Source: Holospora undulata HU1 (GTDB taxonomy: Bacteria; Pseudomonadota; Alphaproteobacteria; Holosporales; Holosporaceae). From it: DNA of 59,427 nt. Under the pieces are notes generated by a model. It was not told where the DNA came from. It saw nothing but the letters and a program-made list of their open reading frames with translations, and ran no database searches. A program made the translations under genes and the position numbers. Within the stretch, counting starts at the first letter, position 1; the number at the start of each line of letters is the position of its first letter. Of this stretch, positions 13,340 to 57,670 are shown one piece after another. The stretch lies in the NCBI RefSeq assembly GCF_000388175.3, contig NZ_ARPM03000202.1:1-59427 (forward strand). The letters run 5' to 3'.

Positions 13340-15529
13340 CTAATCATGATAAAACCAAAGTGAAGGATTTTCCAGAGGAATAATGGTGCCATCTTCAGCG
13401 GACTTATAATGGGTTGGTAAAATAGGCTGAAAATGCGTGGTTTCTTCGCCTGTTTCAGGATCAACTTTTGTCTCCTTCAGGTCCATAGCCTCCACACATA
13501 AAAAGCCATATTTTGATTTGCGGGCTGCGGTTTTACAGAATTTGATATAGCCTTTGGTGGCAAGTACATCAATACGATCACGAATGGAATGCTGGCCGCC
13601 AAGACCTGATCTATTTTCAAAGGCTCTGCAGAACTGACTTGCGGTATAAAGTTTACCTTTTCGTGCCTCCTCATAAATGAGCTGTAAAATGATATCGTGC
13701 TTGCGCCGGCGCTCTGCATCCAACTTTTCACCGTAATGCTTATTCACCAAACGCTCTGATTCTTCTTCGAGTACCGACCATTTGCCGGCTATTTTATCTA
13801 CCCATTTATTATCGATACGCTCGCCATTGCGTAGTTCAAACATCAATTGCCTGGGCGTTTTGCTTTCATCAGGCCGAAACAAAATCATGCCGGTGGTGTA
13901 AAAACCTCTGAGGGCGCCGGCACCACTAAGTGACTGGAAAGGATCTTCTTCCAAAAGCTTTTTGGTAATCTTTTTAGTGTGATGGGCGACAATCATCCCG
14001 GCATTGGGATTGACCTGATGACGCAAACGTTCCAGCCTTTCTTGCAAGAAAAACAGCATGGCATTGTTGTCATTTTCGGTGCCATGATCACCGGCATCAA
14101 AGATATTGCGCAAAGGGTCAATCACAATGAGGTCCACGGTTTTTGGATCAAAAAAGTCGTTAATGGTTTGCACAATCTGCGCAATACCTTCATCATTCAG
14201 TAACATCCTGGTTTGCGGCGTTATCACCAGATTATTGCTGATTTGCTCGAGCACATCAGGATCAAGCTCCAGTTGTTTAAGGCGTTCGCGCAAATAATGA
14301 TAACCAATCTCTGTTTGCAGATAAAAAATCTTTAAGGGCTTTGCGGGTTGCATTCCCAGAAAATGTTTACCTGCTGCCATATGCACCAGCCAGCTTATAA
14401 GAAAATCACTTTTTCCGACTTTGGGCGCACCGCCAAAAATCAACAGTCCACCGGGTGTTACAATACGCGGGGCAATCACATCATAAGGCATGGGTGAATC
14501 ATCCTGAAGTAATTGCCCCAAGGTAAAAGCCGGGACCATCTTATTAACGCTAATTGTCTTTTTTGGGCAAAGGTCGATAAAATTCTCTAAATCAACGCCT
14601 TCCGCATCAGAATCTGCTGCATCATAACCTTTGGGCTTGTTTTCTGGGATCTGAAGGATTTGGATGGATGCCACACCCAGGTTTTTGAGTTTTAATGACA
14701 CTTTATCGGCATATTGTCGGCCTGGCTCATCATGATCCGGCCAAATGATCACATGTTTGTTTTTAAGCGGCTCCCAATCGGTTTTATCAATGGGCGCATT
14801 GGCACCAAACATGGCAGTGGTTGCCGTAATGCCATGTCTCATGAGGCTATCTGCCGATTTTTCTCCTTCAACTAGCACAATTGTCTTGGCTTTGAGGATG
14901 CCTGGAATATTGTAAAACGGCCTTGGGTTTGGCGCCCGATTACGACAGGTTTTCACATCCCACGGCCTATATTGCTTACCTGAATCTGTTTCATAGCGAT
15001 AAACGCAGGCAATCAATTTGTTTGATTCATCAAAATAATCCCACCTAGCTGTGGGGGCACCGAGCAGCTCAGGACCTTCTTCCTCTTGTGTCGCCTCGTG
15101 TTTTTTCTTAATCTCTGAGATCATGGCGTACACGCTTTTAGTGCGCTCGCCGGACCACTGGGCAATATCGGTTAAAATTTCAGGGAACTGCGAACGTGTA
15201 TCTTTTCCCGTAACAGCAGCCCATAGGCTGATAATGTCGCCCCCTTCGTCGGTTGCAAAATCATGCCACATGCCGATGCGATTACCTTCAAGCTCAACAA
15301 CTAAGCTTTGGCCTGGGTTGCCTTGCACATCACCCACATAAAATTTATTGCGCTGGAAAACGCCGCCTGGTAGCAAATAAGATAAACACGATTTAAGGCT
15401 GTAGAGTAATCTTGCTTTCAGCTCGGATACTTGTTCTGACGGCTCCCAAGGTGCGGTGCTTTCAAAACAATTTTGCGGGATCGCTGTGTTGAAGTTAAAA
15501 AAATCCTTCATATCAATGACATTACTCAT
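13340..15529 (-). CDS. Bifunctional phage primase-helicase (TOPRIM plus RepA-like ATPase)
   Basis: 729 aa. The N-terminal 170 residues resemble the leader of phage/plasmid primases (GMWHDFATDEGGDIISLWAA). A TOPRIM-like domain follows at about 220-300: VLVEGEKSADSL and VIIWPDHDEPGRQYADKV supply the acidic residues. A RecA-fold helicase ATPase of the AAA_25/RepA type spans about 350-560, with Walker A GGAPKVGKSD, Walker B LIVIDPLRN and sensor-like IVAHHTKK. The last 130 residues look like a winged helix (GQHSIRDRIDVLATKGYIKF). It should start and drive prophage DNA replication. It is the last gene of the leftward replication operon and overlaps the Cas4-like gene by four bases. No damage is seen. 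Confidence 0.88.
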   Translation of the reverse strand: MSNVIDMKDFFNFNTAIPQNCFESTAPWEPSEQVSELKARLLYSLKSCLSYLLPGGVFQRNKFYVGDVQGNPGQSLVVELEGNRIGMWHDFATDEGGDIISLWAAVTGKDTRSQFPEILTDIAQWSGERTKSVYAMISEIKKKHEATQEEEGPELLGAPTARWDYFDESNKLIACVYRYETDSGKQYRPWDVKTCRNRAPNPRPFYNIPGILKAKTIVLVEGEKSADSLMRHGITATTAMFGANAPIDKTDWEPLKNKHVIIWPDHDEPGRQYADKVSLKLKNLGVASIQILQIPENKPKGYDAADSDAEGVDLENFIDLCPKKTISVNKMVPAFTLGQLLQDDSPMPYDVIAPRIVTPGGLLIFGGAPKVGKSDFLISWLVHMAAGKHFLGMQPAKPLKIFYLQTEIGYHYLRERLKQLELDPDVLEQISNNLVITPQTRMLLNDEGIAQIVQTINDFFDPKTVDLIVIDPLRNIFDAGDHGTENDNNAMLFFLQERLERLRHQVNPNAGMIVAHHTKKITKKLLEEDPFQSLSGAGALRGFYTTGMILFRPDESKTPRQLMFELRNGERIDNKWVDKIAGKWSVLEEESERLVNKHYGEKLDAERRRKHDIILQLIYEEARKGKLYTASQFCRAFENRSGLGGQHSIRDRIDVLATKGYIKFCKTAARKSKYGFLCVEAMDLKETKVDPETGEETTHFQPILPTHYKSAEDGTIIPLENPSLWFYHD

Positions 15530-16230
15530 ATGCCCCCTCCAAAACAGGTTTTATGGTAAGGGCACCATTTGCATTCAAAGTAATTTGGATCTTGGCTAAG
15601 ACGCGGCAGCAATTCAGAAGCCTCTGACGCTTGTAAGATTTGCACAGCGCGGTCAGAATATTTTTGAGCAACAGCGCCATCAAAAGCTACCCACTCGAAA
15701 TAAAGCTCTGAAGAATCCTTATTAAGAGCAACCAACAACGCCGGTCCTTCTGTTAGCTGCATATAGGCCATATAGAGCTGAATTTGCACATAATACCCTG
15801 GTTTGCTGACTGCAAGGCCATGTTTTTCAAGATCTTTCCAGGATTTATTATTGAGCGTTTTGCACTCAAAAAGTGCCGGGTAAAGAAAACCATCCGGGCC
15901 TGCTACAATCACGCCGTCAATATGACCGGCAATCCGATCATTTGCGACTGAAAAACTATATTTCTGGCCGTCTTTGTTACGGGTTATGATATCAAACCCT
16001 GCATCTTTCATCCATGAAATGACTAATGATTCCAGATGATGACCCATCGCAAAAGTCCGCAGCTGCTTACCACTAAAGGGTTGATCAGGCTCTGCGCCCA
16101 TAAACTCATACTGTAATTTACGTGCGCAGTTTTCGCCTAAACGAGAAGCACCAAGATAGGACCTTTTTGGTTTTTGCTGATGCTCACGCGCAATAGCGCT
16201 ATCCAGCATCGCTGCTAATTTACTTTCCAT
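15526..16230 (-). CDS. PD-(D/E)XK nuclease, Cas4/RecB-like
   Basis: About 234 aa from ATG 16230, picked for the GAGG eight bases upstream. Motifs fit the PDDEXK_1/Cas4 group: YLGASRLGENCARKLQYEFM at the N-terminus (a Cys that can join a cluster), GHIDGVIV (metal-binding Asp), LFECKTLNN (ExK), YYVQIQLYMAYM (the QxxxY helix), and the C-terminal CKWCPYHKTCF. Together these give four cysteines, as in iron-sulfur nucleases of the Cas4/AddB class. In phages such enzymes act in recombination or end processing. No CRISPR array or other cas gene is near, so this is a replication/recombination gene and not an adaptation module. Confidence 0.85.
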   Translation of the reverse strand: MESKLAAMLDSAIAREHQQKPKRSYLGASRLGENCARKLQYEFMGAEPDQPFSGKQLRTFAMGHHLESLVISWMKDAGFDIITRNKDGQKYSFSVANDRIAGHIDGVIVAGPDGFLYPALFECKTLNNKSWKDLEKHGLAVSKPGYYVQIQLYMAYMQLTEGPALLVALNKDSSELYFEWVAFDGAVAQKYSDRAVQILQASEASELLPRLSQDPNYFECKWCPYHKTCFGGGI

Positions 16231-16597
16231 GACCTGCCTCATCGATGATTTGGCACCATTTGATTAAGTCAGCCACGGTAAGGCTTCCGATAGGTGCTGC
16301 CAGATTCGCGTGTTTCGCCAGATAATTGAAGAGGACCAAAGCATTCTTGGGTGCGTTTCGCATAATATGAATCGGGACGGAAGTAACACTCCCTTTGTTC
16401 CGGTTGGAATCGTGGGAACCTTCGCCGCCAGCTGCTAAAGGCATCCTGGCACTTCTTGCTGCAAAACCACCAATGTTTTGAATAATGGTTGTTTGGCTGG
16501 CGCCGCCCTTCGGGTGGATGAAACTATCCAAAACCGCCCGCTTTTGCGTGACAGAATGCGCACCACGGCGCGTGATTCTTTGACATGTTATAACCAT
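16220..16597 (-). CDS. Hypothetical prophage protein, 125 aa
   Basis: A strong AAGGAGG ribosome site precedes ATG 16597. The protein is basic, with a Gly/Ser/Ala-rich centre (RSARMPLAAGGEGSHDSNRN) and a helical C-terminus (IGSLTVADLIKWCQIIDEA). No family is recognised. It overlaps the nuclease start by 11 bases and lies in the replication operon. The 61-base gap to the upstream gene holds no clear signal. Confidence 0.5.
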   Translation of the reverse strand: MVITCQRITRRGAHSVTQKRAVLDSFIHPKGGASQTTIIQNIGGFAARSARMPLAAGGEGSHDSNRNKGSVTSVPIHIMRNAPKNALVLFNYLAKHANLAAPIGSLTVADLIKWCQIIDEAGHGK

Positions 16598-16658: not shown

Positions 16659-16967
16659 TTACGTATTTCGTATACGCGCCTCGTACTCATCTCTTGTCTC
16701 CTCGCCAACGCCCAAAATTCTTCTAGGAACCCCTTTTGAAGATGCCCCCATATTTTTCGTCATAAGTGCTTTGAAGAAGTGATCGCGCACCGCATCGGGA
16801 TCAAGCTCGGCAAGATCACAGACAAAGCAAAAAGACTGGGGTGATTTTTGAAAAAACCATCGCAGTGCCTGATGCCTATAAAGATTGGAATCTGTGCATC
16901 CAAAGGCATCGCGCGCGGCTCTATCAATCACAGCCCGCCATAGCAGTATTTCTGCTGTAATGTTCAT
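16659..16967 (-). CDS. Small prophage protein, 102 aa, replication operon
   Basis: The frame begins MNITAEILLWRAVIDRAARD and includes YRHQALRWFFQK and FVCDLAELDPDAVRDHF. That pattern (ALxWF...VCxLAxLDPDxVR) is common in small proteins from alphaproteobacterial prophages and looks like a helix-turn-helix of the Trp-repressor kind, though I cannot name a family. Its ATG overlaps the end of the Hint/LAGLIDADG gene (ATGA at 16967-16964), so translation was coupled to that gene. Confidence 0.6.
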   Translation of the reverse strand: MNITAEILLWRAVIDRAARDAFGCTDSNLYRHQALRWFFQKSPQSFCFVCDLAELDPDAVRDHFFKALMTKNMGASSKGVPRRILGVGEETRDEYEARIRNT

Positions 16968-18010
16968 GGCTGCTCTCCTTGCATCACCATGAAGTCGGAT
17001 TTCAAATAAAGGCTATCTGGCCCTTGTAAAACCAACTTCACGCATTGCTGCGGCTGTAGCGGATGCACGGTGAATCCGGTTCGAAGAACATGGCGTTTTT
17101 GCACCCTTGGCCCTGGAATTTTGCGCCCCACCCGAGAAGTGGGATGTCTTTAAAATCACCATAGATGCAAAAGCGGTAATAGATTTGCCCTTCAACGGTT
17201 CGCTCTTTAGGTAGTGCCATCAGACCTAAGCTTTGAGCCACAAACGCAATATCTTGCGCTAGCTGCTTGCTTGAAGTCGTATACTCAAAGGTTTTGTGGA
17301 GCATGTGACCATCCGTATCAAGCAACCCTGCCAAAATCTCTTGTCGTACTTTTTGAGAGGCTCGTTTGTAGACGTCCGGGATAAACTTTTCCGGTGAGCT
17401 TTTGTTGTATAAACCAAGGTTGCGCAACGCTTCAGTCAGTGGATTGGTTTTCCCGCTGATACTGCTAAAATAATAGCCATTGGCTTGATTGCCCGGAATT
17501 TGATAGATTCGCGCCGAAAGCCCCATTTGATCTGCCATCACAAAGCAATAATCCACAATCTCAGGATCGGGTGTTGTAATGCTTGGTGGAGGTATTTCGA
17601 AAACAGCCATCACCAACTAAAATGCCTAAAAAATACGGATCAAGAGGCAGAGCTGGCCCGTCACTAAAATTCACAGGCATGCGGTATAACAAGTGCACAC
17701 CTTTAAAGTGCGGTGATTGCTTGAGATATTCCCACATCGGAACAGATTTCAGATCATAGAGTTCAAGGCTTGTGGAGCGCACCAACGGCAAAGATTGGCT
17801 AGCGCCTAAAACAAATGACGCTCCCTTAATCGGCCTGATTTCAAAGGTATCTTCTAAAGATGTTCTGATATCAATCACCGTTCGTGGCAGGCTATCTGCG
17901 CCCATAATCTCATCGCCTATTTCAAGTTCTGTAATAGGCTTTATCGCACCGCTTGCCATCAGAATATCGATAGGCTGAGGTGAGGTTTTTGGAGGATGAT
18001 GTCGTGTCAT
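16964..18010 (-). pseudogene. Free-standing intein-like Hint / LAGLIDADG homing endonuclease, two frameshifts
   Basis: A strong ribosome site (GGGAGG, six bases before ATG 18010) starts MTRHHPPKTSPQPIDILMAS, followed by GAIKPITELEIGDEIMGADS: intein block A without the usual Cys1. Block B lacks its His (LGASQSLPLV). Two LAGLIDADG helices are visible: YFLGILVGDGCF (about residue 126) and EILAGLLDTDGHM. One indel near 17575 separates them; a second in an A5 run near 17091 leads into TGFTVHPLQPQQCVKLVLQG and LYLKSDFMVMQGEQP, the C-terminal block, ending Met-Gln where His-Asn is needed. No extein surrounds it. This is a splicing-dead homing endonuclease relic, perhaps left from an intein in a lost helicase gene. 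Confidence 0.75.
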
Positions 18011-22483: not shown

Positions 22484-23730
22484 ATGACAGAACTTCAAAT
22501 ACAACATATCCCCATAGACAATCTTATCGCATACGCCCGCAATCCCCGCAAAAATGATGCGGTGGTTGATAAAATGTGTGCCTCCATCAAAGAATTTGGT
22601 TTTCGTATCCCCGTCATTGCTAAAAGCGATGGCAGCGTTGTTGATGGCCATTTGCGCCTCAAAGCTGCTAAAAAACTGGGTTTAAAACTGATTCCAGTTA
22701 TCTTAGCCGATGATTTAAGTGATGCCCAAATCAAAGCCTTTAGATTGCTTGCCAATCAATCGGCTAATTGGGCGGATTGGGATGACGATTTACTCAAACT
22801 TGAACTGGAAGATTTGCAGGCACTTAATTTTGATCTGGAATTAACTGGGTTTGATTTTGATGAAATACAAAAGCTCTTGGATGCTACCGATATTGATCTT
22901 GAGGAACCTGCTGAAGCGGATGCAGTTGATCCGGCAGATAATATCCCTGTTATCAGTAAGCCTGGTGATTTATGGATTTTAGGTGAGCACAGACTTTATT
23001 GCGGCGACAGCACAATACTTGACTCCTACAACATTGTTTTAGAGGGCGAGCAAGCCGATATTACGGTGTGTGATCCTCCTTATAACGTCAATTATGGCGC
23101 CAGCATAAAGATACGCTGCGCAACAAATCCCGCGAAAATAAACACAAAATCTTGAATGACAATCTTGGCGAAGGCTTTGAAAGTTTTCTCTATGACGTCT
23201 GCTCTAACATCATCATGAACACCAAAGGCGCAATTTACATATGCATGGCAGCTTCAGAATTGGCTGTACTACAAAAAGTCTTTAAGCAAGCTGGTGGTCA
23301 TTGGTCAACATTCCTCATTTGGGCGAAAAATCATTTTTCTTTAGGCAGAGCAGACTATCAACGGCAATATGAACCTATTCTTTATGGATGGCGCGAAGGT
23401 GCTGATCGTCATTGGTGCGGTGCTCGTGATCAAGGCGATGTCTGGTTTATCGATAAGCCCAGCGCTAATAATTTGCATCCCACTATGAAGCCAGTTGCGC
23501 TCATGGAACGCGCTATTATTAACAGCAGTAAGCCTGGCGATATCGTTCTTGATCCCTTTGGTGGTTCTGGTACAACGCTCATGGCAGCAGAGCGCACCAA
23601 GCGTCGTTGTCGCATGATTGAGCTTGATCCTAAATACATCGATACCATCATAAGGCGATTCCAGATGCAAACCAAAACAAAGGCCATTCATGCCGTCACG
23701 CAAAAGACCTTTGATGAACTATGTACGTGA
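22484..23730 (+). pseudogene. ParB/Sulfiredoxin-like plus DNA N4/N6 methyltransferase fusion, one frameshift
   Basis: Residues 1-125 are a ParB/Srx N-terminal domain: NLIAYARNPRKND, PVIAKSDGSVVDGHLRLKAA. The methyltransferase part then starts (PGDLWILGEHRLYCGDSTIL) with the catalytic motif DPPYNVNYG. The frame breaks at about 23106: NYGAS is followed by KDTLRNKSRENKHKI in the next frame, which runs on with TTG 23152 as an in-frame Leu codon to SAM motif I, DPFGGSGTTLMAAE. One base appears lost. Intact relatives are phage adenine or cytosine-N4 methyltransferases that modify the phage genome against host restriction. No cognate nuclease is encoded nearby. Confidence 0.88.
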
Positions 23731-23736
23731 TAGCTT

Positions 23737-24207
23737 ATGGAACTCATCAAGCAATCGCAATGGGCAAAGCGACATGGATTTTCAAGGCAATACGCGGGAC
23801 AGCTGGTGCAGAGTGGCGTCATTCAACTGGTTGATGGCCTTATAGACGTTGAACAGGCAGATGCTGCTTTAGCCGCCATGCGTGATCCAAGTCAGCCTGA
23901 GCGACGCAAAAGTACTTCTGATGTCACTGAGCTTTCAACGCTTCTACTTAAAACCAGAATAAAAAATGAAATGGAACGGGGCAAGCTTTTGGAAGCCCGT
24001 GCCAAAGCAGAAATTGGAGCATTGGTTTCAGTAGAAGACGTCAAGGTGTCGGCCTTTAACAAAGCCAGAATCGTTCGTGATAGTTTGATGAACATTCCTG
24101 ATCGCGTTGCTTCACTTTTAGCATCTATCGATGATCCCCACAAAATTCACGAGGTGTTATTGCAAGAAATTCGAACTACTTTGGAGGAATTAAGCCGTGA
24201 CGTGTAA
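23737..24207 (+). CDS. Terminase small subunit (Nu1-like)
   Basis: 156 aa. The N-terminus QSQWAKRHGFSRQYAGQLVQ is a winged-helix DNA-binding motif as in lambda Nu1. The rest is a helical oligomerisation region with a coiled coil (LLLKTRIKNEMERGKLLEAR) and a C-terminal helix that should contact the large subunit (DRVASLLASIDDPHKIHEVL). It recognises the packaging site. It sits directly upstream of the large subunit and overlaps it by 11 bases. Confidence 0.8.
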   Translation: MELIKQSQWAKRHGFSRQYAGQLVQSGVIQLVDGLIDVEQADAALAAMRDPSQPERRKSTSDVTELSTLLLKTRIKNEMERGKLLEARAKAEIGALVSVEDVKVSAFNKARIVRDSLMNIPDRVASLLASIDDPHKIHEVLLQEIRTTLEELSRDV

Positions 24208-26393
24208 GCCTTACCACATGAGTTTTAATACGGGGCTTCGGCCTGATCCACTACTCAAAGTTTCTGAGTGGGCGGATGGATTTCGTATGTTATCGCAAAC
24301 CGCATCCTCTGAACCCGGCAGATGGCGCACCGAACGCACGCCTTATCTTAAAGAAATCATGGATGCACTATCGCCATCATCACCTGTTGAAAAAGTGATT
24401 TTTATGAAAGGCGCGCAAATTGGAGGCACTGAAGCGGGCAATAACTGGATTGGTTACATTATTGATCAAGCGCCTGGTCCTATGCTGGTGGTTCAGCCCA
24501 CTGTTGAAATGGGCAAGCGTTGGTCTAAAGGACGCTTAGCCCCACTGATTGATGATACACCTACCTTGCGGGATAAAGTTAAGGACCCACGCTCTCGCGA
24601 TTCAGGTAACACCGTCCAAAGTAAAGAATTCACCGGCGGTATCGTTGTGGTGACCGGTGCCAATAGTGCTGTGGGTTTACGTTCCATGCCCGTGCGCTAT
24701 TTGTTTTTAGATGAAATTGATGCTTATCCGAGGGATGCTGACGGTGAAGGTGATCCAGTCTCCCTTGCTATTCAACGTACTGCTACCTTTGCTAGACGCA
24801 AAATTTTGCTTGTCTCAACGCCCACCATTCAAGGATTAAGCCGAATTGAGAGGGAGTTTGAAGCCTCCGATCAACGCTACTACTGGGTGCCATGTCCACA
24901 TTGCCATACCTTTCAAATTCTAAAATGGCCGCAAGTCAAATGGGACGACGATCCACTCAACGCCTATTATGTCTGTATCTCTTGCGAAGAAAAAATCTAC
25001 AATCATCAAAAAACCTGGATGTTAGCGAATGGTGAGTGGCGAGCCGCTAATGAGTGCAATGGTAAGATTGCGGGATTTCATCTCTCAAGCCTTTATAGCC
25101 CAGTGGGTTGGTTAAGCTGGGGACAAGCAGCCCAGAATTTCTTGCATGCTAAAGATAATGAACAACTGCTGAAAGTTTGGGTTAACACGACTTTAGGCGA
25201 GACCTGGGTCGATAAAGGTGAAGCACCCGATTGGCAGCGCTTGTTTGAGCGTAAAGAGAACTATCCTATCGGCATTGTGCCGTTTGGTGGGTTAGTTCTA
25301 ACTGCCGGTGTTGACGTACAAAAAGACCGTATTGAGGTGGAGATCGTTGCCTGGGGCAAAAACCGAGAGAGTTGGTCGGTTGATTATTGCAGGCTTTCAT
25401 ATTTCCAATTTGTACAGCCCAGTTGGCTGGCTAAGCTGGGGGCAAGCAGTTCAGAACTTCTTGCACGCCAAGGATAATGAACAGCTACTGAAAGTTTGGG
25501 TCAATACCACACTGGGTGAAACTTGGGTCGATAAAGGGGAAGCGCCCGATTGGCAGCGTCTGTTTGAACGTAAAGAGAACTATCCTATCGGCATTGTGCC
25601 TTTCGGTGGGCTAGTTCTGACTGCCGGTGTTGACGTACAAAAAGACCGTATTGAAGTTGAGATTGTTGCTTGGGGTAAAAACCGAGAGAGTTGGTCGGTT
25701 GATTATCGTATTTTTGATGGTGACCCCGCTAAAGCCAGCACTTGGTAGCATCTTTCCACATTGATGAGCACTTTATTCCCCAGCGAAGACGGCTTAGATC
25801 GAGGAATTTCCATGATGGCCGTTGATGCCGGTTATGCCACTCAAGAAGTCTATGGCTGGATTCGCAGTTTACCACCTGGGCGAGTGATGGCCGTAAAAGG
25901 TATCGATAAAGCATTAGTACCAGTGGGTGCACCAAGCCGTGTGGACGTCACCATTTTAGGACAAAAACTCAGACGTGGCGCCAAACTCTGGCCGATTGGC
26001 GTCTCCGTTTTAAAATCAGAACTCTATCATGCGCTTAAGCTCTCCCAAGGCGAGGAAGGCTTTCCTCCGGGATATTTCCACTTTCCAGCTTACGGGGCTG
26101 AATATTTTAAGCAACTGACATCGGAGCAGCTGGTTACCAAAGTTCATAAAGGCTATCCAAAACGTGAATGGAAAAAAATCCGTGACCGCAACGAGGCCCT
26201 TGATTGCCGCATTTATGCCAGAAGTGCAAGTATCGCAATCGGCATCGACCGCTGGCAACCCTCCAAATGGGATAGCTTGATGGGATACAAAAAATCATCG
26301 ATTCCTGAATATAAGATTCAACATGAACAATTACCACTGTCTCAGAGCAAAACCTCAAGACCAAGGGTGATAAGAAGTAAATTTATGGGATAA
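24197..26393 (+). pseudogene. Terminase large subunit (GpA family), duplicated inside and with a nonsense codon
   Basis: The GTG start at 24197 has GGAGG nine bases upstream. The ATPase part is clear: KVIFMKGAQIGGTEAGNN (Walker A region), FLDEIDAYPRD (Walker B), LLVSTPTIQGLSRIE, and a zinc-ribbon-like CPHCHTFQ with CISCEEKI. The nuclease part begins LVLTAGVDVQKDRIEVEIVA. A 319-bp segment (25067-25385) then repeats as 25386-25704, shifting the frame and stopping at 25477. The second copy leads into GDPAKASTW-TAG-HLSTLMSTLF; the TAG at 25746-25748 probably replaced a CAG. The rest of the nuclease follows to 26393 (SMMAVDAGYATQEVYGWIR). No functional packaging motor can be made. Confidence 0.88.
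25067..25704 (+). repeat. Diverged 319-bp tandem duplication in the terminase gene
   Basis: Copy A is 25067-25385 and copy B is 25386-25704. By eye they differ at roughly 35 of 270 aligned bases (about 87% identity), nearly all at third codon positions. The encoded protein is almost unchanged (for example WGQAAQNF versus WGQAVQNF). 319 is not a multiple of three, hence the frameshift. Confidence 0.85.
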
Positions 26394-26397
26394 TTTT

Positions 26398-26619
26398 ATG
26401 TATTTAGTCGATGATCTGGTCAAAATTGAGCAAGCCATCACAAAATTACAGATGGGTGAGCGCGTGGTTTCTGTTGCCTATGGCGATCATATCGTTAAAT
26501 ATGCGGAAGTGGATTTAAAAGATCTCTTAAACTTACGCACCCGCATTAAATCAGATTTAAAAAGCAGCACGTCCTTAAAGCGGCGCATTACTTTTGCCAC
26601 ACATAAGGGGATTTGCTGA
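26398..26619 (+). CDS. Head-tail joining protein, lambda gpW-like
   Basis: A 73-aa protein: two helices flank a beta hairpin (KLQMGERVVSVAYGDHIVKY), then DLLNLRTRIKSDL. Length, fold pattern and location between terminase and portal fit lambda gpW, which stabilises the filled head and allows tail joining. Its stop overlaps the portal start (TGATG). Confidence 0.8.
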   Translation: MYLVDDLVKIEQAITKLQMGERVVSVAYGDHIVKYAEVDLKDLLNLRTRIKSDLKSSTSLKRRITFATHKGIC

Positions 26620-28006
26620 TGCTACTTAAAACATTCGCACAACTTTTCAAACGCCCCAAAAGCAAAGCTTCTGCTTGGGATGCGGCAGGTTCTGGCAAGC
26701 GCCTAACCTATTGGCAGCCCGAAAATAGCGCCATCAATAGCTTACTTGGGAATCATCTAGAAACACTGATATTATTGAAACACTGGTGAGTAACGCTGTT
26801 GGCACCGGTATCAAACCGCAATCAAAAGCTAAAAATGCAGAATTTCGTAAAGCGGTACAGGCATTATGGCTGCGCTGGTCCGATGAGGCGGATAGCCATG
26901 GCGTTAATGATTTTTACGGTCTACAAGCCTCTATTTGTCGCAGCATGATTGAAGGGGGCGAATGTTTTGTTCGCTTTAGAGTACGTCGCTCTGAAGAGGG
27001 ATTATCCGTTCCCTTACAATTACAGGTGCTTGAATCTGAGCATTTAGATACATCAGTGAATCGCATTTTAATCACGGGTAATATGGTTCGAAACGGTATT
27101 GAGTTTAATAAACTTGGCCAACGTGAAGCCTATTATTTGTTTCGTGAACATCCAGGTGAAAAGCTGCTTGTCTCAAACGGTGAATCAGTCCGCATTCCTG
27201 CCTCTGAAGTATTGCATATTTATAAACCCTTGCGTCCCGGTCAAATTCGAGGAGAGCCTTGGCTAAGCCGTGTGTTGCTTAAATTGTATGAGCTGGATCA
27301 GTACGATGATGCCGAGCTGGTGCGCAAGAAAACCGCTGCTATGTTTGCAGGGTTTATCACCCGTCTTGATCCTGAAGCCAACATGATGGGTGAAGGTGCC
27401 GCCAATGAACAAGGGATGGCCCTTGCCGGACTTGAGCCTGGCACCATGCAGCTACTGGAACCTGGAGAAGACGTTAAATTTTCTAATCCTTCGGATGTTG
27501 GGGCAAATTACGAAGCCTTTATGCGCCAGCAGCTCAGAGCCATTGCTGTTGGCATGGGCATTACCTATGAACAGCTGACAGGAGATTTAACCAACGTCAA
27601 TTATTCATCCATTCGTGCAGGGCTCATTGAATTTCGTAGGCGCTGCGCCACTTTGCAACATCATGTGATAGTGTTTCAATTTTGTCGGCCTGTTTGGAAT
27701 CGCTGGATTGAACTGGCTTTGCTTTCTGGCGCCTTACCTTCTCAAGACAAAGATACATCTATCAAAGATGTGAAATGGATACCCCAAGGTTTTGACTGGG
27801 TTGATCCACTCAAAGATCAGCAAGCACAACAAATGGCAGTGCGTAATGGCTTTAAAAGTCGCGCTGAAGTGGTTTCAGAGCTGGGATATGATACAGAAGA
27901 AATTGATCAAGAAATTGCGGCAGATAACAACAGAGCTGATGAAGCAGGGTTTGTTTTAGATTCCGACCCAAGGCATACAACACCGCCTAAAAAACGAGGT
28001 TTTTAA
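26619..28006 (+). pseudogene. Lambda-type portal protein with a frameshifting deletion near residue 47
   Basis: The frame opens MLLKTFAQLFKRPKSKASAW and continues DAAGSGKRLTYWQPENSAIN, SLLGNHL, then breaks near 26760. In the next frame the portal resumes as RNTDIIETLVSNAVGTGIKP and continues for 400 residues: GECFVRFRVRRSEEGLSVPL, EVLHIYKPLRPGQIRGEPWL, LTGDLTNVNYSSIRAGLIEF. The usual segment with RSRDLVRRNP-type residues is missing, so about 20 codons seem deleted and the frame shifted. Portal rings anchor the terminase and form the DNA channel. The remaining 406-aa frame from 26786 lacks a typical start. Confidence 0.82.
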
Positions 28007-29124
28007 TGAATGACATTTACTTAAAATTTGCCATGAAACCGATGATGATTGAGCGTCGCAGCTTTGAGTGGCTGGCTGCCCACATGGCATCAAACAAGGC
28101 TTTGAAGTTTACACCCCCCTCCTTAGCACATGGTGGCAGCAATAACATCGCCATCATTCCGATTCATGGCATTTTAACCAAACGCTCAGGCATATTTGAC
28201 GGCATGTTAGGTATGACTTCCTACGATGAAATACAACAACAAATCAGCGCTGCTTTGTCGGATGATGCCGTACAAACGATTTTACTCGACATTGATAGTC
28301 CCGGCGGTGAAACCAGTGGACTGTTTGATTTAGCCGATTTTATTTATCAGGCACGCAGCCAAAAAACCATTTGGGCCATGTGTAATGATGAGGCCTATTC
28401 TGCGGCTTACGGGATTGCATCCAGCGCTGAAAAGGTTTTTATCAATCGGACGTCTGGTGTAGGTAGCATTGGCGTGATTGCCAGCCATATTGACCAAAGT
28501 GCCTTTGATGAAAAGCAAGGGGTTAAATACACTACCGTTTTTGCCGGCAGCCGTAAAAATGATTTAAATCCTCATGAGCCGTTAACTTCTGAATCCATGC
28601 AAACTCTGCAAAGTGAAGTCAGCAGGTTATATGAGATGTTTGTAGAGCTGGTAGCCCGTAATCGAGATCTTACAACAGAAGCCATAAAGGCTACAGAAGC
28701 TGGCCTTTATTTTGGCCTTAATGCCATCCAAACAGGGCTTGCGGACGAAATTCTCACCTTTCCTGAATGTATTCAAAAAGCAGCCTCTCAATCTTTTATA
28801 AGGACCATAGCTATGACTGAAACAGTACCGACCATTAATCCAGAAGAATTACTTACCCAAGGCAAAATCCTAGGGCGCAGTGAATATCACGCGGAAGCTT
28901 TAGAAATTTTCCGTTTATGTAAGCTCTCGAAGATGCCAGAAAAACTGGGTGATTTTATTGAGCAAAATATCCCGGTTAACGAAGCACGCGAACAGCTCAT
29001 GCAGCTACTCGCTGATCGTACCGGTACTGAAATCTTGAGCACTGTGAGCCTTGAGCCAACCCCTCAAGAAAATCCGGTGATCCAAGCTGCTAAAGCTCGT
29101 AGTCACATGAAATTAACCGCATAA
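28006..29124 (+). CDS. S49 family prohead protease (lambda gpC-like) with scaffold-like tail
   Basis: 372 aa. The protease domain has LLDIDSPGGETSGLFDLADF and the nucleophile in NDEAYSAAYGIAS (Ser near 132), with a probable Lys partner near 184 (GSRKND), the SppA/gpC dyad. The last 110 residues are helical and charged, like the scaffold gpNu3 encoded inside lambda C. A possible internal start is the ATG of MTETVPTINPEELL near 28813, after an AAGGA ribosome site, which would give a free scaffold of about 103 aa. It cleaves scaffold and portal during head assembly. It overlaps the portal stop by one base. Confidence 0.88.
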   Translation: MNDIYLKFAMKPMMIERRSFEWLAAHMASNKALKFTPPSLAHGGSNNIAIIPIHGILTKRSGIFDGMLGMTSYDEIQQQISAALSDDAVQTILLDIDSPGGETSGLFDLADFIYQARSQKTIWAMCNDEAYSAAYGIASSAEKVFINRTSGVGSIGVIASHIDQSAFDEKQGVKYTTVFAGSRKNDLNPHEPLTSESMQTLQSEVSRLYEMFVELVARNRDLTTEAIKATEAGLYFGLNAIQTGLADEILTFPECIQKAASQSFIRTIAMTETVPTINPEELLTQGKILGRSEYHAEALEIFRLCKLSKMPEKLGDFIEQNIPVNEAREQLMQLLADRTGTEILSTVSLEPTPQENPVIQAAKARSHMKLTA

Positions 29125-29139
29125 ATGGAGGAAACCCTT

Positions 29140-29512
29140 ATGACCGTTGCTATTGAACAAAAAAACTTAGGAGATCTTCTTAAGTTTGAAGCTCCTAATC
29201 TTTATTCCCGTGAAGAGATAACTGTAGCTCAGGGGCAAAAACTAGCCCTTGGTGCCATTATCGGCCAAGACAGTGAAACAGATTTGATTAAAGCATTAAA
29301 TCCTGCTGCCACAGACGGCACACAAAATGCCCTTGGGGCTTTGATTGCTGAGGTAGATGCCAAGTAGTAACACCAAAGCCGTGATTGTGACACGCGATGC
29401 AATTCTTGCCGATCACGCCGTTGTCTGGCCAACCACCATCACGCTTGAACAAAAAATAGCTGCTATCAAGCAGCTTGAGGCACGCGGCGTCATTATTCGT
29501 AAAGGGGTATAA
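29140..29512 (+). pseudogene. Head decoration protein (lambda gpD-like), frameshifted
   Basis: GGAGG eight bases upstream supports ATG 29140. The frame reads MTVAIEQKNLGDLLKFEAPN and later LYSREEITVAQGQKLALGAI, ALGALIAEVDAK, then stops at 29365-29367. In the next frame it continues SSNTKAVIVTRDAILADHAV and VWPTTITLEQKIAAIKQLEA, ending at 29512. This is the full HDPD/gpD family pattern of about 120 aa, split by one indel near 29362. Such trimers stabilise the expanded capsid. Confidence 0.82.
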
Positions 29513-29515
29513 TCT

Positions 29516-30517
29516 ATGCAAAATCCATTCTCACATCCGGCATTTAATATGGCAGCTTTAACGGCTTCCATTAATTTATTGCCAAACACTTATGGTCGGA
29601 CAGAATCATTAGGTTTATTTCCTTCTAAGTCGGTACGCTTTAGGCACATCGCTATTGAAGAGCGCAACGGCGTTTTAAGCTTGCTTCCAACAGCAAGTCC
29701 AGGTGCGCCGGGTACTGTTGGTAAACGCGACAAACGAAAAGTTAGAACATTTACTATTCCGCATATTCCCCATGATGATGTAGTTCTACCGGAAGAAGTA
29801 CAGGGTATTAGAGCTTTTGGTACTGAAAATGAATTGCAAGCTATTGCGAGTGTTATTACCGATCACCTGCAATCCATGCGTAACAAACATGCCATTACCT
29901 TAGAACACCTTCGAATGAGTGCTTTGAAAGGCATTATTTTGGATGCTGATGGAACAGAGCTCGTCAACCTTTATAACGAATTTGAAATCACGCCAAAAAT
30001 AGTGAGCTTTGCTTTAGGGACAGCTGGCACTGATGTTAAAAGAAAATGTATCGAAGTGCTGCGTCATGTTGAAGATAACCTACGTGGCGAATTCATGACA
30101 GGCGTTCATGCGCTAGTCAGCCCTGAGTTTTTTGATGCCTTAACCTCACACGCCAAAATCAAAGAAGCCTATGACAGGTGGCAGGAAGGGGCAGCACTGC
30201 GTAATGATATGCGTTCAGGATTTACCTTTGGTGGGATTACTTTTGAAGAATATCGTGGTCAAGCAACCGATCCTGATGGCAACGTCAGACGCTTTATTGC
30301 CCAAGATACAGCGCATTGTTTTCCGCTAGGTACTGCTGAGACTTTCTCAACTTATTTTGCACCGGCTGATTTTAACGAAACCGTGAATACCTTGGGGCAA
30401 CCGCTTTATGCCAAGCAAGAGCCAAGGCGCTTTGATCGCGGTACAGATTTACATACTCAATCTAATCCGCTGCCAATGTGTTATCGTCCGGGAGTTCTGG
30501 TGAAGCTGACGGTATAA
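29516..30517 (+). CDS. Major capsid protein (Phage_cap_E family)
   Basis: 333 aa, matching lambda gpE-type coat proteins in length and pattern: NPFSHPAFNMAALTASINLL near the N-terminus, IAIEERNGVLSLLPTASPGA, FTIPHIPHDDVVLPEEVQGI, the spine helix ELQAIASVITDHLQSMRNKH, and the C-terminal PRRFDRGTDLHTQSNPLPMC. It is intact in a head module where several neighbours are broken. It starts three bases after the decoration gene ends. Confidence 0.92.
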   Translation: MQNPFSHPAFNMAALTASINLLPNTYGRTESLGLFPSKSVRFRHIAIEERNGVLSLLPTASPGAPGTVGKRDKRKVRTFTIPHIPHDDVVLPEEVQGIRAFGTENELQAIASVITDHLQSMRNKHAITLEHLRMSALKGIILDADGTELVNLYNEFEITPKIVSFALGTAGTDVKRKCIEVLRHVEDNLRGEFMTGVHALVSPEFFDALTSHAKIKEAYDRWQEGAALRNDMRSGFTFGGITFEEYRGQATDPDGNVRRFIAQDTAHCFPLGTAETFSTYFAPADFNETVNTLGQPLYAKQEPRRFDRGTDLHTQSNPLPMCYRPGVLVKLTV

Positions 30518-30520
30518 GCT

Positions 30521-30829
30521 ATGAGTTTAACCAAAATGTTTGAGGATTGTTTTGCGCATTTAGGGAAAGAGGCAATATACCAGAGCTCTGGCGCTGCTCC
30601 TTTTCCTATTCGCGTTTTAATCAAACAACCCGATACACCTTATGAAATGGGTGATGGGCAAGTGATTGGCCATATGGCGATATTTGAAGTGGGTACCCAT
30701 GAATTAGCCTTTCCTAAAGTCGGTGATCAGCTGATTATTGGAGGCAATCGCTATAAAATCTTTAGCGAGCCTCTACGTGATGCTTCTAATACAGTTTGGG
30801 AAATAACAGCTATGGTGATGGAAGGCTAA
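30521..30829 (+). CDS. Head-tail connector protein (gpFII / Gifsy-2 type)
   Basis: A 102-aa beta-rich protein: PIRVLIKQPDTPYEMGDGQV, MAIFEVGTHELAFPKVGDQL, IIGGNRYKIFSEPLRDASNT. Size, sequence style and position after the capsid gene fit lambda gpFII-like connectors that close the portal and dock the tail. It is intact, with three bases separating it from the capsid gene and one base from the next. Confidence 0.7.
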   Translation: MSLTKMFEDCFAHLGKEAIYQSSGAAPFPIRVLIKQPDTPYEMGDGQVIGHMAIFEVGTHELAFPKVGDQLIIGGNRYKIFSEPLRDASNTVWEITAMVMEG

Positions 30830-30830
30830 T

Positions 30831-31367
30831 ATGTCCACCTTTACCTTGGATGTTGCAACATATGGTGATATCGACCAAATCATTGCAAGGGTGTGTGGAA
30901 CTGAAAGCCAAGTACAACTGGCGGCCATGCGCGCCCTCAATAAAACCGCTCTCTGGCTTAAATCCCAAAGCGTGAAAGAAATCAGCGCGCAGAAAAAACT
31001 TCAACAAAAAATTATACGTGAACGACTGAAGCTTGTTAAAGCCAGCAAAAGTTCTTTAAAAGCATTAGTGGTCGCCAGTTTTTATGGTATTAAAGCCTCG
31101 CTTTTAGGTTCCATGCGCCAAACGGCTATAGGTGCCAAAGCGGGGAAATCTCAATTTACCGGTGCCTTTGTCGCTATGATGCCCACGGGCCACCGAGGTA
31201 TTTTTAAACGAAAAACAAAAAGCAGATTACCCATTCGTGAAGTCGTGCTACCGCTTGAACCTGTCGCTTCTAATATCATCAAAGGCTTTGTGGATACAGG
31301 TGCCGCAGATAAATTCATTCAATATTTTCGCCATGAACTGGGCTTTATTTTAAAGGTGAGCCTATGA
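30831..31367 (+). CDS. Minor tail protein Z-like
   Basis: 178 aa. The helical N-terminal region (AAMRALNKTALWLKSQSVKE) and the basic middle (KIIRERLKLVKASKSSLKAL) with the later RLPIREVVLPLEP motif resemble the lambda gpZ / prophage minor tail protein Z family, which sits at the head-proximal end of the tail. Its stop overlaps the next start (ATGA at 31364). It is intact. Confidence 0.7.
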   Translation: MSTFTLDVATYGDIDQIIARVCGTESQVQLAAMRALNKTALWLKSQSVKEISAQKKLQQKIIRERLKLVKASKSSLKALVVASFYGIKASLLGSMRQTAIGAKAGKSQFTGAFVAMMPTGHRGIFKRKTKSRLPIREVVLPLEPVASNIIKGFVDTGAADKFIQYFRHELGFILKVSL

Positions 31368-31886
31368 ACTTTTGGGAAGAGATTACATGCTGCCATTACC
31401 TCTACGTTAAAACGCGAGATAATGGAAATTCACACTTGTGAATCTTATCCGGTGATCAAAACGGCGTTATTGGCACCAGCTATTTTAGTAGAACTGGCAA
31501 GCTTTGAACCCGGCAATGATCCAGGAACCGGGGAAATTGCGCTGCGCGCTCGCTTTGAAGCAAGAATTATTGTAGATAGCACGATCCCAAATGCCGCCTT
31601 TGCCGTAAGGGCTTTGGCGAGTGAAGTTGCAAGGGTCATTCATCAAAATTCATGGGGGATGAATGTATCACCTGCTGAATTTTTAGGTGCGAGTCCTGAT
31701 GGGTTTAAGCCGGACCTTGATGCCTATATGGTTTGGATCATTGAATGGGCGCATGAGATCCACCGTGGGGATTCTGTTTGGACACCAAGCGGTATTCAGC
31801 CACATACCATTTATGTGGGCATTGCTCCGGGAATCGGCGCTGCCCATGAGCCTGATTATATAGAGGTACCAAATGGAGAGTTTTAG
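31364..31886 (+). pseudogene. gpU-like tail terminator/minor tail protein, frameshifted at the start
   Basis: ATG 31364 begins MNFWEE, then the family-like sequence moves to another frame: HAAITSTLKREIMEIHTCES, YPVIKTALLAPAILVELASF, with RFEARIIVDS and later YMVWIIEWAHEIHRGDSVWT. A single indel near 31378 would restore 173 residues. The 154-aa frame from ATG 31422 remains open, so a shortened product is possible. The position (after gpZ) and beta-rich pattern suggest a gpU-type protein. It overlaps gpV by 14 bases. Confidence 0.65.
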
Positions 31887-32339
31887 TTTTTCTGAACTTG
31901 ACCGAAAACTCGCCAATCTCATTCGCGTGGGGACTGTTAAAGAGGCCGATTACAAAAAAGCCCGTGTGCGTATTCAGATTGGCAAAATCCTCACCGATTG
32001 GCTGCCTTGGGTTACTTCTCGCGCTGGACAAGACAGAAATTGGTCAGCGCCCAGTGTGGGTGAACAGGTTGTTTTATTATCACCGTCAGGTGAAATGGCC
32101 CAAGGCGTTGTGATCCCGGCTATTTATCAAAACAAACATCCTGCCCCTAGCGATAAAGAAACAGACGTTGCCTTTGTGTTTCAAGATGGCAGCAAAGCAA
32201 TTTACGACAAGAAAGAGCATCACCTTACCATCTCCTGATAACAGAAGGCAAGCTAACGCTGAATGTAGGTGAATCAAGCCTTGAGATGAGTAAAGACGGC
32301 ATCAAGCTCAAAGCTAAACGAATTGATTTGAATGAATGA
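31873..32339 (+). pseudogene. Baseplate spike protein gpV-like, frameshifted near the end
   Basis: The 121-aa frame opens MESFSFSELDRKLANLIRVG and has the OB-fold signature of P2 gpV: ARVRIQIGKILTDWLPWVTS, GEQVVLLSPSGEMAQGVVIP. The C-terminal beta-helix then breaks at KKEHHLTIS, and LTLNVGESSLEMSKDGIKLK continues in another frame to 32339. P2 gpV is the membrane-piercing needle of the contractile tail. A PAAR gene follows directly. Confidence 0.82.
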
Positions 32340-32340
32340 T

Positions 32341-32628
32341 ATGCCAGGAATCGTAAGACTTAATGATAAATGCACCGGCCATAGCTGTTATCCGCCCAGA
32401 CTTTGCATTACTGCAAGCACAGATGTCTTTGTTGATAGTAAGGCCGTCCACCGCGAGCAAGATAAATGGGCCATGCATGCGTGCCCTAATACGCCGCCCC
32501 ATGATGGTCTGCTCGCTAAAGGTTCAAGCACAGTTTACGCCAATGGTAAAGCGATTGCTCGTATTGGTGATCCCGTTTCTTGTGGTTCAAAAACACGTGA
32601 TGGCAGTCAAACTGTTTTTGCGGGATAA
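32341..32628 (+). CDS. PAAR-motif spike tip protein
   Basis: About 95 aa: MPGIVRLNDKCTGHSCYPPR, then three short PAAR-like repeats: VFVDSKAVHREQDKWAMHAC, STVYANGKAIARIGDPVSCG, SQTVFAG. His and Cys residues spaced for a single metal are present. PAAR proteins cap the gpV needle with a sharp metal-bound cone. A Met three codons upstream (32332) is in frame, but the family start fits ATG 32341. Confidence 0.85.
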   Translation: MPGIVRLNDKCTGHSCYPPRLCITASTDVFVDSKAVHREQDKWAMHACPNTPPHDGLLAKGSSTVYANGKAIARIGDPVSCGSKTRDGSQTVFAG

Positions 32629-32631
32629 ATT

Positions 32632-32970
32632 ATGCGCGGAATGAATGGAAGAAGCGGCAAAGAATTAACGGGCCTTGAGCATCTCAAGCAATCGATTGTG
32701 GATATCTTAACCACCACAATTGGTAGCCGTGTGATGCGCAGAGATTACGGTTCTAGGCTATTCGAACTTGTTGATCGCCCGACATCTGCCGGTTTTGCCG
32801 TTGAACTATATGCAGCTACGGCTGAGGCACTGCAAAAATGGGAGAATCGTTTTAAGCTCGAGCGCGTTAAAGTTGAGTCTATTAAAGAAGGTCATATTAC
32901 GTTGATTTTAGAGGGGATTTATCTGCCAGATGGCAAGCCTATAACCTTAGATGGGATTGTGGTGTCATGA
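32632..32970 (+). CDS. Baseplate wedge protein gpW/gp25-like
   Basis: 112 aa with the gp25 lysozyme-like fold signature: GLEHLKQSIVDILTTTIGSR, VMRRDYGSRLFELVDRP, KWENRFKLERVKVESI and LEGIYLPDGKPITLDGIVV. P2 gpW and T4 gp25 belong to this family and form the wedge core. The stop overlaps the next start (ATGATG). Intact. Confidence 0.9.
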   Translation: MRGMNGRSGKELTGLEHLKQSIVDILTTTIGSRVMRRDYGSRLFELVDRPTSAGFAVELYAATAEALQKWENRFKLERVKVESIKEGHITLILEGIYLPDGKPITLDGIVVS

Positions 32971-33801
32971 TGCAAGATCTAACGCGCCTACAAAATCCGA
33001 ATGTTATTGAGTCGCTTGAGTATGAGACGATTTTTTCGCATATGAAGCAAGAGCTGATTCGCCTTGATCCAACATTTTCAGCGCTGCTTGAAAGCGACCC
33101 GGCCATGAAGATTTTAGAAATTGCCGCCTGGCGCGAACCGCTTTTACGTCAAAGGGTCAATGATGCCGCGCGCTAATTTACTGGCTTTTGCAGCTAAATC
33201 AGATTTGGAACATTTAGCCGCTTTTTATGATGTACAGCGTAAATCAGGGGAAGATGACGAAGCTTTTAGGCGGCGTATCCAGGCGAAAATCATGGGCTGG
33301 TCAACTGCAGGAAGCCGTGAGCATTATTGTTATCATGCACTTTCAGCTGATATCCGCATCAAAGATGCGCGGGCTGAATCACCAAGCCCTGGAATGGTGA
33401 AAGTTTCGATTTTATCCCATGAAGGTGATGGCACGCCAAGCCAAGAGCTGCTAGAAAAAGCACGGTCTGTTATTTTACGTGATGATGTCAGGGTTTTAAC
33501 CGATACGGTTGAGGTGGTCAGTAGCGCCATTATCCCTGTTAACCTTGAAGCTAAAATCTATCTCTATCCCGAAACACCGGAAGATATTATTGAGACAGCC
33601 AAAGCTGCTTTTATCAAAGCACTGAATGACACAAAAGGTTTGGGGTGGAACCTAACGCGCAGCTGGATTATTGCACATCTTTTTGCTCAAGGCGTACAGC
33701 GCATCGAATTGCTTAAGCCGGCTGAGGATATCGTTGTTTTAGATCATGAATGTGTGGCGCTTGATTCCATAGAGCTAACGATGGGAGGGCGTGATTGGTG
33801 A
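32967..33801 (+). pseudogene. Baseplate wedge protein gpJ-like, frameshifted
   Basis: The first frame encodes MMQDLTRLQNPNVIESLEYE and LESDPAMKILEIAAWREPLL, RQRVNDAAR, then stops at 33174-33176. The next frame carries on without a gap: NLLAFAAKSDLEHLAAFYDV, SGEDDEAFRRRIQAKIMGWS, TAGSREHYCYHALSADIRIK, ending GRDW at 33801. The pattern is P2 gpJ/Mu gp47, needed with gpW and gpI for the baseplate. One indel near 33172 splits it. Confidence 0.88.
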
Positions 33802-35048
33802 TGATGTTACTGCCTCCAAGTAGTTCGCCTCAAGAACAAGCCCTTGTTGATGCTATCAGCTTTAGAGTTGATCCAGGTAAAATACGAGGGTTTAAATTTA
33901 ACCCTACCGACAGTGTCCTCCCATGGTTGATCCATGAATATGGGCTGGGTGAGATTTTAGCTTGGGTTCCTGATCCAAGACGCGCGATTCAAGATGGCGT
34001 TCGGTTTCAACGGATTCGTGGTACTCCTGCTTCACTGCGCATGGCTCTAAAATGGATGAATATCGAAAATATTTATATCGAAGAAGAACCACCAGGAAAG
34101 CACTTTGCTGAATTTCAGGTGGGCATTCACGATGTACCCAATGATTTCTTTGTTGATAATGTAGTGGCCCTTGCAAAACTATCAGCACCGGCCAGATCTC
34201 GCCTGATGCGGATGTATAACGACCGCTATGATATCAGGCGATTTATGCTGGATAGCAGCGAATTCCGCTATGATATCAGGCGATTTATGCTGGATAGCAG
34301 CGAATTTGGATCGCTGCTTTCTGATTATTCAGGAGTAAAACTGTCGCCTGATGGCCCAGTATTATCTTTTGGTCGGTTTAATCCGTTTGAAGCTAAATCA
34401 GAAGAGGTTTTACTAAAATTTGCAAGCGCACGTAGGCATCACAACAGTACGTTAAGTGATGATCTTTACCGGCTAGATGTAGCTTTTATAGGTGAGACGG
34501 AGCCTCATACCCGTAATTACAACGGCATTTATGAACGCGCGCATATTTGGCAAAACCCTGATCCACTATCACCTTTCACCCCTGATTTTGAACCACCTCT
34601 ACATCTTGCAAAAGCATTGATTGTTTTATCCGATAGCTGGCGGCTTGGCGATATTAACGCCTGCTTTTCCGTGCGCCTTGAGCATGAGATAGGTGCCACA
34701 TTTATTTTAAGCGCTGATACTTTATCCGAACATGTTTGGCGAATAAGCTTTGAAGAAGTTTTGGAAAGCTTTGCATCAAACTACACTGAGAATCTCGATG
34801 CTGAGATCGTGCCAGACGTTAATCCTCATTTTGCAAAAGAACACTCGGACTGGTTAGCTGAAACGCTCTTATGGCCTTATTTGTCGGCAGATTCGTTAGG
34901 TGAATTGGAGCTTTTGCCTTATCAAAAACGTGACCATTTTGAACCATCTCTTTATGAAGGATGCTTGCTCTGGCATGAGCATCGTCACTTAAACCGTCCT
35001 TGGACGAATCTAGAACCAATCGTGAAACAACCCTTAACTAGAACTTGA
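33801..35048 (+). CDS. Tail protein gpI-like with an exact 42-bp internal duplication
   Basis: 415 aa from ATG 33801, which overlaps the gpJ stop. The N-terminal 190 residues match P2 gpI: LPPSSSPQEQALVDAISFRV, LPWLIHEYGLGEILAWVPDP, IQDGVRFQRIRGTPASLRMA and RLMRMYNDRYDIRRFMLDSS. Residues RYDIRRFMLDSSEF occur twice in tandem. The gene then extends 220 residues beyond P2 gpI (about 176 aa) with DLYRLDVAFIGETEPHTRNY and IWQNPDPLSPFTPDFEPP, probably a fibre-anchoring domain. The duplication keeps the frame, so the product may be full length though perhaps misfolded. Confidence 0.82.
   Translation: MMLLPPSSSPQEQALVDAISFRVDPGKIRGFKFNPTDSVLPWLIHEYGLGEILAWVPDPRRAIQDGVRFQRIRGTPASLRMALKWMNIENIYIEEEPPGKHFAEFQVGIHDVPNDFFVDNVVALAKLSAPARSRLMRMYNDRYDIRRFMLDSSEFRYDIRRFMLDSSEFGSLLSDYSGVKLSPDGPVLSFGRFNPFEAKSEEVLLKFASARRHHNSTLSDDLYRLDVAFIGETEPHTRNYNGIYERAHIWQNPDPLSPFTPDFEPPLHLAKALIVLSDSWRLGDINACFSVRLEHEIGATFILSADTLSEHVWRISFEEVLESFASNYTENLDAEIVPDVNPHFAKEHSDWLAETLLWPYLSADSLGELELLPYQKRDHFEPSLYEGCLLWHEHRHLNRPWTNLEPIVKQPLTRT
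34223..34306 (+). repeat. Exact 42-bp tandem duplication in the gpI-like gene
   Basis: Copy 1 is 34223-34264 and copy 2 is 34265-34306, identical over all 42 bases. It encodes 14 residues, RYDIRRFMLDSSEF, twice. Perfect identity indicates a recent event. Confidence 0.9.
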
Positions 35049-48419: not shown

Positions 48420-48859
48420 GATTTGAAACCTCTAAACTTATCTTTGGTGGCTACGAAAGCTCCATAAAATAGCACAAAAGGCGTTAAAAGTATTTCGGGT
48501 AAAAACGTCATCTCGAGAAAACGACGAAGCAAAAGCATTCTTCGAACAGATGGTGTAAACTCAAATACTCTTCTTCTCCCATTCAAAACTTCAACTTCGT
48601 GCTTATGAATAAGCCTACTTTCAATTTTTCTCCAGCCAAGACCAATTGAATCAGGATATAATAAGATGATTTTCCCAGGTGAACGTGTCTGATTTATATC
48701 TACGATCTCAGCATCAGGAAATTTTTCACGCAACAGATCTAGCATATATTCCTTTGATCTCGGGTTAGATCGGTGACAGACAATTCGATAAAGCTTTTGC
48801 GGCATCCACCAAGGTTTAATGTTGAAAAAAGAATCATCAAAAAGTGCGTATGTGTTCAT
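48416..48859 (-). CDS. Hypothetical glycan-cluster protein, about 147 aa
   Basis: MNTYALFDDSFFNIKPWWMP is followed by YMLDLLREKFPDAEIVDINQ, KIILLYPDSIGLGWRKIESR and a C-terminal hydrophobic segment (FLPEILLTPFVLFYGAFV), perhaps one membrane helix. No family is recognised. The start is taken at ATG 48859 (a longer frame starts at 48871). It overlaps the deacetylase-like gene upstream by 23 bases and the methyltransferase downstream by four, so it is clearly part of the operon. Confidence 0.6.
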   Translation of the reverse strand: MNTYALFDDSFFNIKPWWMPQKLYRIVCHRSNPRSKEYMLDLLREKFPDAEIVDINQTRSPGKIILLYPDSIGLGWRKIESRLIHKHEVEVLNGRRRVFEFTPSVRRMLLLRRFLEMTFLPEILLTPFVLFYGAFVATKDKFRGFKS

Positions 48860-49709: not shown

Positions 49710-49711
49710 AA

Positions 49712-55087: not shown

Positions 55088-55090
55088 TGC

Positions 55091-57665: not shown

Positions 57666-57670
57666 TACTA

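Follow-up and report, generated by a model that had tools for sequence, protein, structure and literature searches.

Two diverged tandem segments in a terminase gene of Holospora undulata: probable scar of an out-of-register join between related phages

How can a phage gene come to carry, one directly behind the other, two copies of the same segment that differ mostly at silent positions, in an arrangement that leaves no reading frame through both? The question is raised by the terminase large subunit gene of a prophage of Holospora undulata HU1, which lives as a symbiont in the Paramecium caudatum micronucleus and whose genome sequence comprises 1,402,636 bases on 203 contigs (PMC5911502 Table 1). 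The window, that is, the whole stretch of DNA analysed (59,427 nucleotides), is contig C2 of the 203-contig assembly. The answer that we consider the probable one, with moderate confidence, is a dead-end recombination scar, in which the terminase alleles of two phages of the Undavirus group were joined out of register.

The tandem segments and the broken terminase gene

The locus is made up of the following parts.
24197 to 25387, + strand: 5' piece of the gene for the terminase large subunit; it covers the gpA ATPase domain and the first stretch of the endonuclease domain and closes with copy 1 (from PF05876, PF20454, phrog_15 and an intact relative)
25067 to 25385, + strand: copy 1 of the 319-bp segment, belonging to the first allele group (from pairwise and allele comparison)
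25386 to 25387, + strand: junction 'AT', with which the left piece ends and the right piece begins (from alignment to 12 single-copy relatives)
25386 to 25704, + strand: copy 2 of the 319-bp segment, its start nearer the second allele group and its last ~183 bp nearer the first (from allele comparison)
25386 to 26393, + strand: 3' part of the terminase gene, with the remaining endonuclease domain and a nonsense codon at 25746-25748 (from an intact relative and PF20454)

Judged from its domain matches, the locus is a pseudogene of the gpA-type terminase large subunit family. The left piece matches PF05876 at residues 37-281 (6.3e-99), with the gpA ATPase domain whole, then PF20454 at residues 291-402 (profile 1-114), as well as phrog_15, while the right piece takes up PF20454 at profile positions 130-293 within 25761-26393. 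On an intact relative of 625 amino acids, the left piece matches residues 6-397 and the right piece residues 291-625 with one stop, the TAG at 25746-25748, which is a sense codon in 11 of the 11 relatives aligned there. Phage lambda gpA (PF05876/PF20454) has the same two domains in the same order; in the Holospora prophage, however, the endonuclease domain, which is continuous in a gpA-type terminase, is split over two open reading frames by the join, with its 319-bp partial repeat, and is further interrupted by the nonsense codon.

The two copies are tandem homologues, in register at a spacing of 319, and lie at exactly the positions given for them in the preliminary description. They differ at 45 of 319 bases (14.1%, for the roughly 13% first estimated); third codon positions account for 37 of these 45 differences, and of the 40 differing codons 37 are synonymous, which bears out the claim that nearly all changes are silent (dN 0.016, dS 1.14 by NG86, dN/dS about 0.014; P about 2e-11 for the third-position excess against a uniform spread). 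Identity is uneven along the segment: the first 138 bases reach 77.5%, the last 183 reach 92.3%, and the longest identical run common to both copies is 35 bases. Chance similarity is ruled out by 300 aligned bases at 85% identity. The tandem is the sole direct repeat of at least 50 bases within 3 kb in the 59-kb window, which holds no letter N, join included; 12 of the 12 relatives checked have a single copy at this position, with both flanks continuous.

Since 319 bp amount to 106 codons plus one base and are not a multiple of three, the tandem itself breaks the terminase gene, as had been claimed. Silent divergence could not have been maintained after the join, once the frame was lost, and the copies therefore diverged earlier, in separate working terminases; on this point the preliminary description was right, frame loss and the 37 silent codons of 40 both placing the divergence before the join. 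The dS between copy 1 and its nearest relatives (0.47-0.61) is well under that between the copies. A simple slippage duplication of the terminase segment is ruled out by the silent divergence.

Ancestry of the copies within a mosaic phage family

The relatives form two terminase allele groups at the position of the tandem. Copy 1 is 91-92% identical to members of the first (L003, L085, L089, L175), and copy 2 shares 80-87% with all relatives of both groups, 87% being the maximum. Over its first 60 bases copy 2 carries the base of the second group (L004, L087, L088, L091, L092) at most differing sites, and later it is more first-group-like; by this pattern it appears to be a mosaic of the two groups. 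In tree tests, the copies as sisters were rejected over the first 138 bp (p-AU 0.019), a split that was chosen after the pattern had been seen and is to be read with care; over the full 321 bp the test fell short of significance (p-AU 0.103; 0.076 when the set was changed slightly), and the last 183 bp were uninformative (p-AU 0.466). The different nearest relatives to be expected from recombination between phages are found, with tree support over the first 138 bp and without significance over the full length. No parent of copy 2 closer than 87% DNA identity was found among viral contigs by exact pattern or with protein queries from both right-half parts. The same join was encountered in one IMG/VR record only, which agrees with the window letter for letter along 9.5 kb and probably stems from the same isolate, and the near-identical sister H. 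elegans gave no match in the searches for a parent of copy 2, for the same join or for a second prophage.

The locus had been proposed to be a junction between two related phages, and the proposal holds in part: the copies have different nearest relatives and their divergence predates the join. The two sides are not, however, two globally different phages. Sliding identities along the prophage give no clean switch from a phage A to a phage B, a relative from another alphaproteobacterial family (G029) is ~85-94% identical over most of the prophage on both sides of the join, copy 2 is mosaic, and the right side groups with the first allele group again from about 26000, ~300 bp beyond copy 2. The suggested comparison of synonymous divergence and nearest relatives to the left and right gave an equally mixed answer: against the same relatives, dS is about 0.53-0.70 left of the join and rises to 0.89-1.58 immediately right of it, but is mostly lower again after 25749. 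The lack of a clean switch and the rightward return of first-group affinity therefore argue for a right-hand partner from within the same mosaic family rather than for a globally distinct phage; the entire prophage is a fine mosaic.

Mosaic recombination is known among tailed temperate phages. Their mosaics likewise join segments of different ancestry inside a gene, and a fine mosaic runs along the whole Holospora prophage; viable tailed-phage mosaics keep register and frame, whereas the Holospora join keeps neither and is dead, which is what one would expect of an unselected product. Prophage DNA 88-90% identical (L003, L175) is present in a Betaproteobacteria-labelled MAG as well as in the other alphaproteobacterial family (G029); either the phage group crosses host families or this MAG is mis-binned.

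A physical join or an assembly product

The ends of the join are set by the 12 single-copy relatives, the left side being homologous through GATTAT and the right side from ATTGCAGG, with AT as the only overlap. By this alignment the join looks illegitimate and out of register by 319 bp. With only 2 bp in common there is no useful homology, which fits end joining or template switching, the mechanism that we infer, and RecA or Red-type exchange is unlike a join of this kind; a 2-base overlap is often expected by chance and proves no mechanism. Probably, two phages of the same WO-like (Undavirus) group, co-resident or co-infecting, whose terminase alleles differed by about 14%, were joined within the gpA endonuclease domain, 319 bp out of register, at the 2-bp 'AT' microhomology. 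The outcome would be 319 bp repeated as two alleles and a frame shift, without a whole terminase, so that the prophage should fail to package its own DNA; the scar would persist because the prophage is decaying, without selection for growth. The join may have come before or after the other lesions. Against a recombination scar it must be said that neither a close parent of copy 2 nor a reciprocal product was found.

The block directly to the right of the join is also present on a second contig, C7 (5,248 bp; L173, G000:C7).
26387 to 29474, + strand: portal, protease and start of the head decoration gene, with two frame-breaking lesions (letter for letter on C7, with a different left flank)
The match is exact and includes both the portal deletion and the decoration lesion. 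To the left of the block, C7 carries the tail of another terminase allele (its final ~50 codons), followed by a hipA-like gene with a small partner of helix-turn-helix-like type; the second terminase tail and both genes lie at 276-2160, the genes between terminase and portal. A short sequence in this flank recurs at many other contig ends and is probably an IS end. In one viral contig (L090) the arrangement agrees with that of C7 along 2.2 kb, at 88% identity, and the hipA-like insert would be a cargo cassette of this phage group; in L003, L085 and L089 the terminase is directly followed by the next gene, as on C2. Going by these relatives, both left flanks of 26387-29474 are natural. An identical dead block with two left neighbours implies, therefore, that prophage pieces recombined after the death of the block or that the assembly graph is ambiguous there. 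Long DNA queries found no second full prophage in the assembly, only C7 matching, and the 5' half of another terminase was not found in the assembly. At the far end of the window, 48812-59427 (10,616 bp, to the contig end) is identical on C11 and C12 (L225:1-10616; L226:7562-18177), which continue differently; this is either a long exact repeat or a branch that the assembly left unresolved, and the exact sharing means that contigs here run into unresolved repeats.

These repeats give some substance to the rival that we regard as the most serious, though unlikely: two prophage remnants with different terminase alleles, whose contig ends shared a homologous overlap of 319 bp, could have been abutted when 452 contigs were reduced to 203. 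The first HU1 assembly was a draft from short reads (101-bp paired Illumina reads at about 4,000-fold depth, ABySS, k = 72, 452 contigs; PMC3751619), the assembly remains fragmented, 161 kb of H. undulata are repetitive by coverage (PMC5911502), identical blocks of 3,088 bp and 10,616 bp are shared with C2 by C7 and by C11 and C12, respectively, and C7 demonstrates a second terminase tail in the genome. Yet the junction contains no N, its 2 shared bases would, we infer, be abnormal as a step in an assembly graph, and a graph with k = 72 would not confuse copies whose longest identical run is 35 bases; moreover, the gene pieces stand in the correct order and orientation, neither of the complementary halves, the right part of allele 1 and the left part of allele 2, was found elsewhere in the assembly, and no whole-genome amplification is described (PMC3751619). 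On this balance we take the join, with good but not full confidence, to be physical rather than an assembly product.

A physical tandem might also have arisen without any illegitimate join between phages. In one such scenario, a plain tandem duplication within a single gene was followed by homologous exchange with another phage, which overwrote one copy; the 92% likeness of the copies over the last 183 bp, the mosaic nature of the whole family and an identical 42-bp tandem, which indicates that slippage duplications do occur in this prophage, speak for it, but two events are needed, the exchange must replace all or most of one copy, and the longest identical run is 35 bases, so that we hold it to be improbable. 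Hardly credible is an old duplication whose copies drifted apart in place: the tandem layout is its sole argument, whereas a dN/dS of about 0.014 requires selection on both copies although the tandem breaks the frame, copy 1 is nearer to other phages than to copy 2, and none of the relatives has the tandem. The recombination scar, which we prefer, also has a more speculative extension, to which we give only limited credence: the unselected, out-of-register illegitimate product of two phages would have been kept because it arose between prophages already dead in the endosymbiont and, together with C7, would suggest that dead prophages keep trading arms near the terminase.

The phage group and the decay of the prophage

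WO-like prophages with Holospora as host, H. undulata included, have been placed in a proposed genus Undavirus of a proposed family Symbioviridae, described in PMC9203015 as having a YqaJ gene and a GH108 endolysin, without ankyrin or eukaryotic association module. In the window, PF09588 is matched at 15526-16242, just over the cut-off, and an H. obtusa prophage contig (L005/L174) matches 23312-34740 at 85-87%; by these similarities the prophage belongs to the proposed WO-like Undavirus group. The likeness extends to host genus, gpA-type terminase, capsid E, P2-type tail gene and YqaJ domain, the HU1 copy differing in that it is broken in many genes; a chimeric terminase is not mentioned in the passages of PMC9203015 that were consulted.

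Frame-breaking changes relative to at least two relatives lie at 23107, 26769, 29361, 31381, 32235, 33167 and 35027; at 26769 a deletion has removed 46 bp of the portal gene that nine relatives retain. Further changes of this type, relative to G029 alone, lie at 17136, 17589, 18160, 40127 and 41720. The terminase join is accordingly one lesion among many in a dead prophage. One of two H. undulata prophage regions has been called intact (PMC5911502); if this is the present prophage, with its broken genes for terminase, portal and head decoration and several broken tail genes, the label is true of gene content only. The terminase fusion is a scar of an already understood kind in a decaying prophage. 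Provided that the join is physical, the scar is a small fossil of a failed out-of-register join of phage genomes, an event that should be common in theory and is normally removed by selection; apart from this, the case is one of ordinary prophage decay.

Between 16500 and 42700 there are many small frameshifts and few nonsense changes, and most proteins are about 84-97% identical to a relative; the decay seems to be recent and dominated by small indels. The identical tandem that had been noted in the gpI gene was confirmed as an in-frame 42-bp repeat in a P2 gpI-like tail gene (34223-34306, as 34223-34264 and 34265-34306), absent from G029 and H. obtusa, the two relatives aligned. At 16967-18010 a gene is broken into three, and its part at 17561-18010 weakly matches a Hint domain (PF05203); G029 has one open reading frame of 347 amino acids in the place of this gene.
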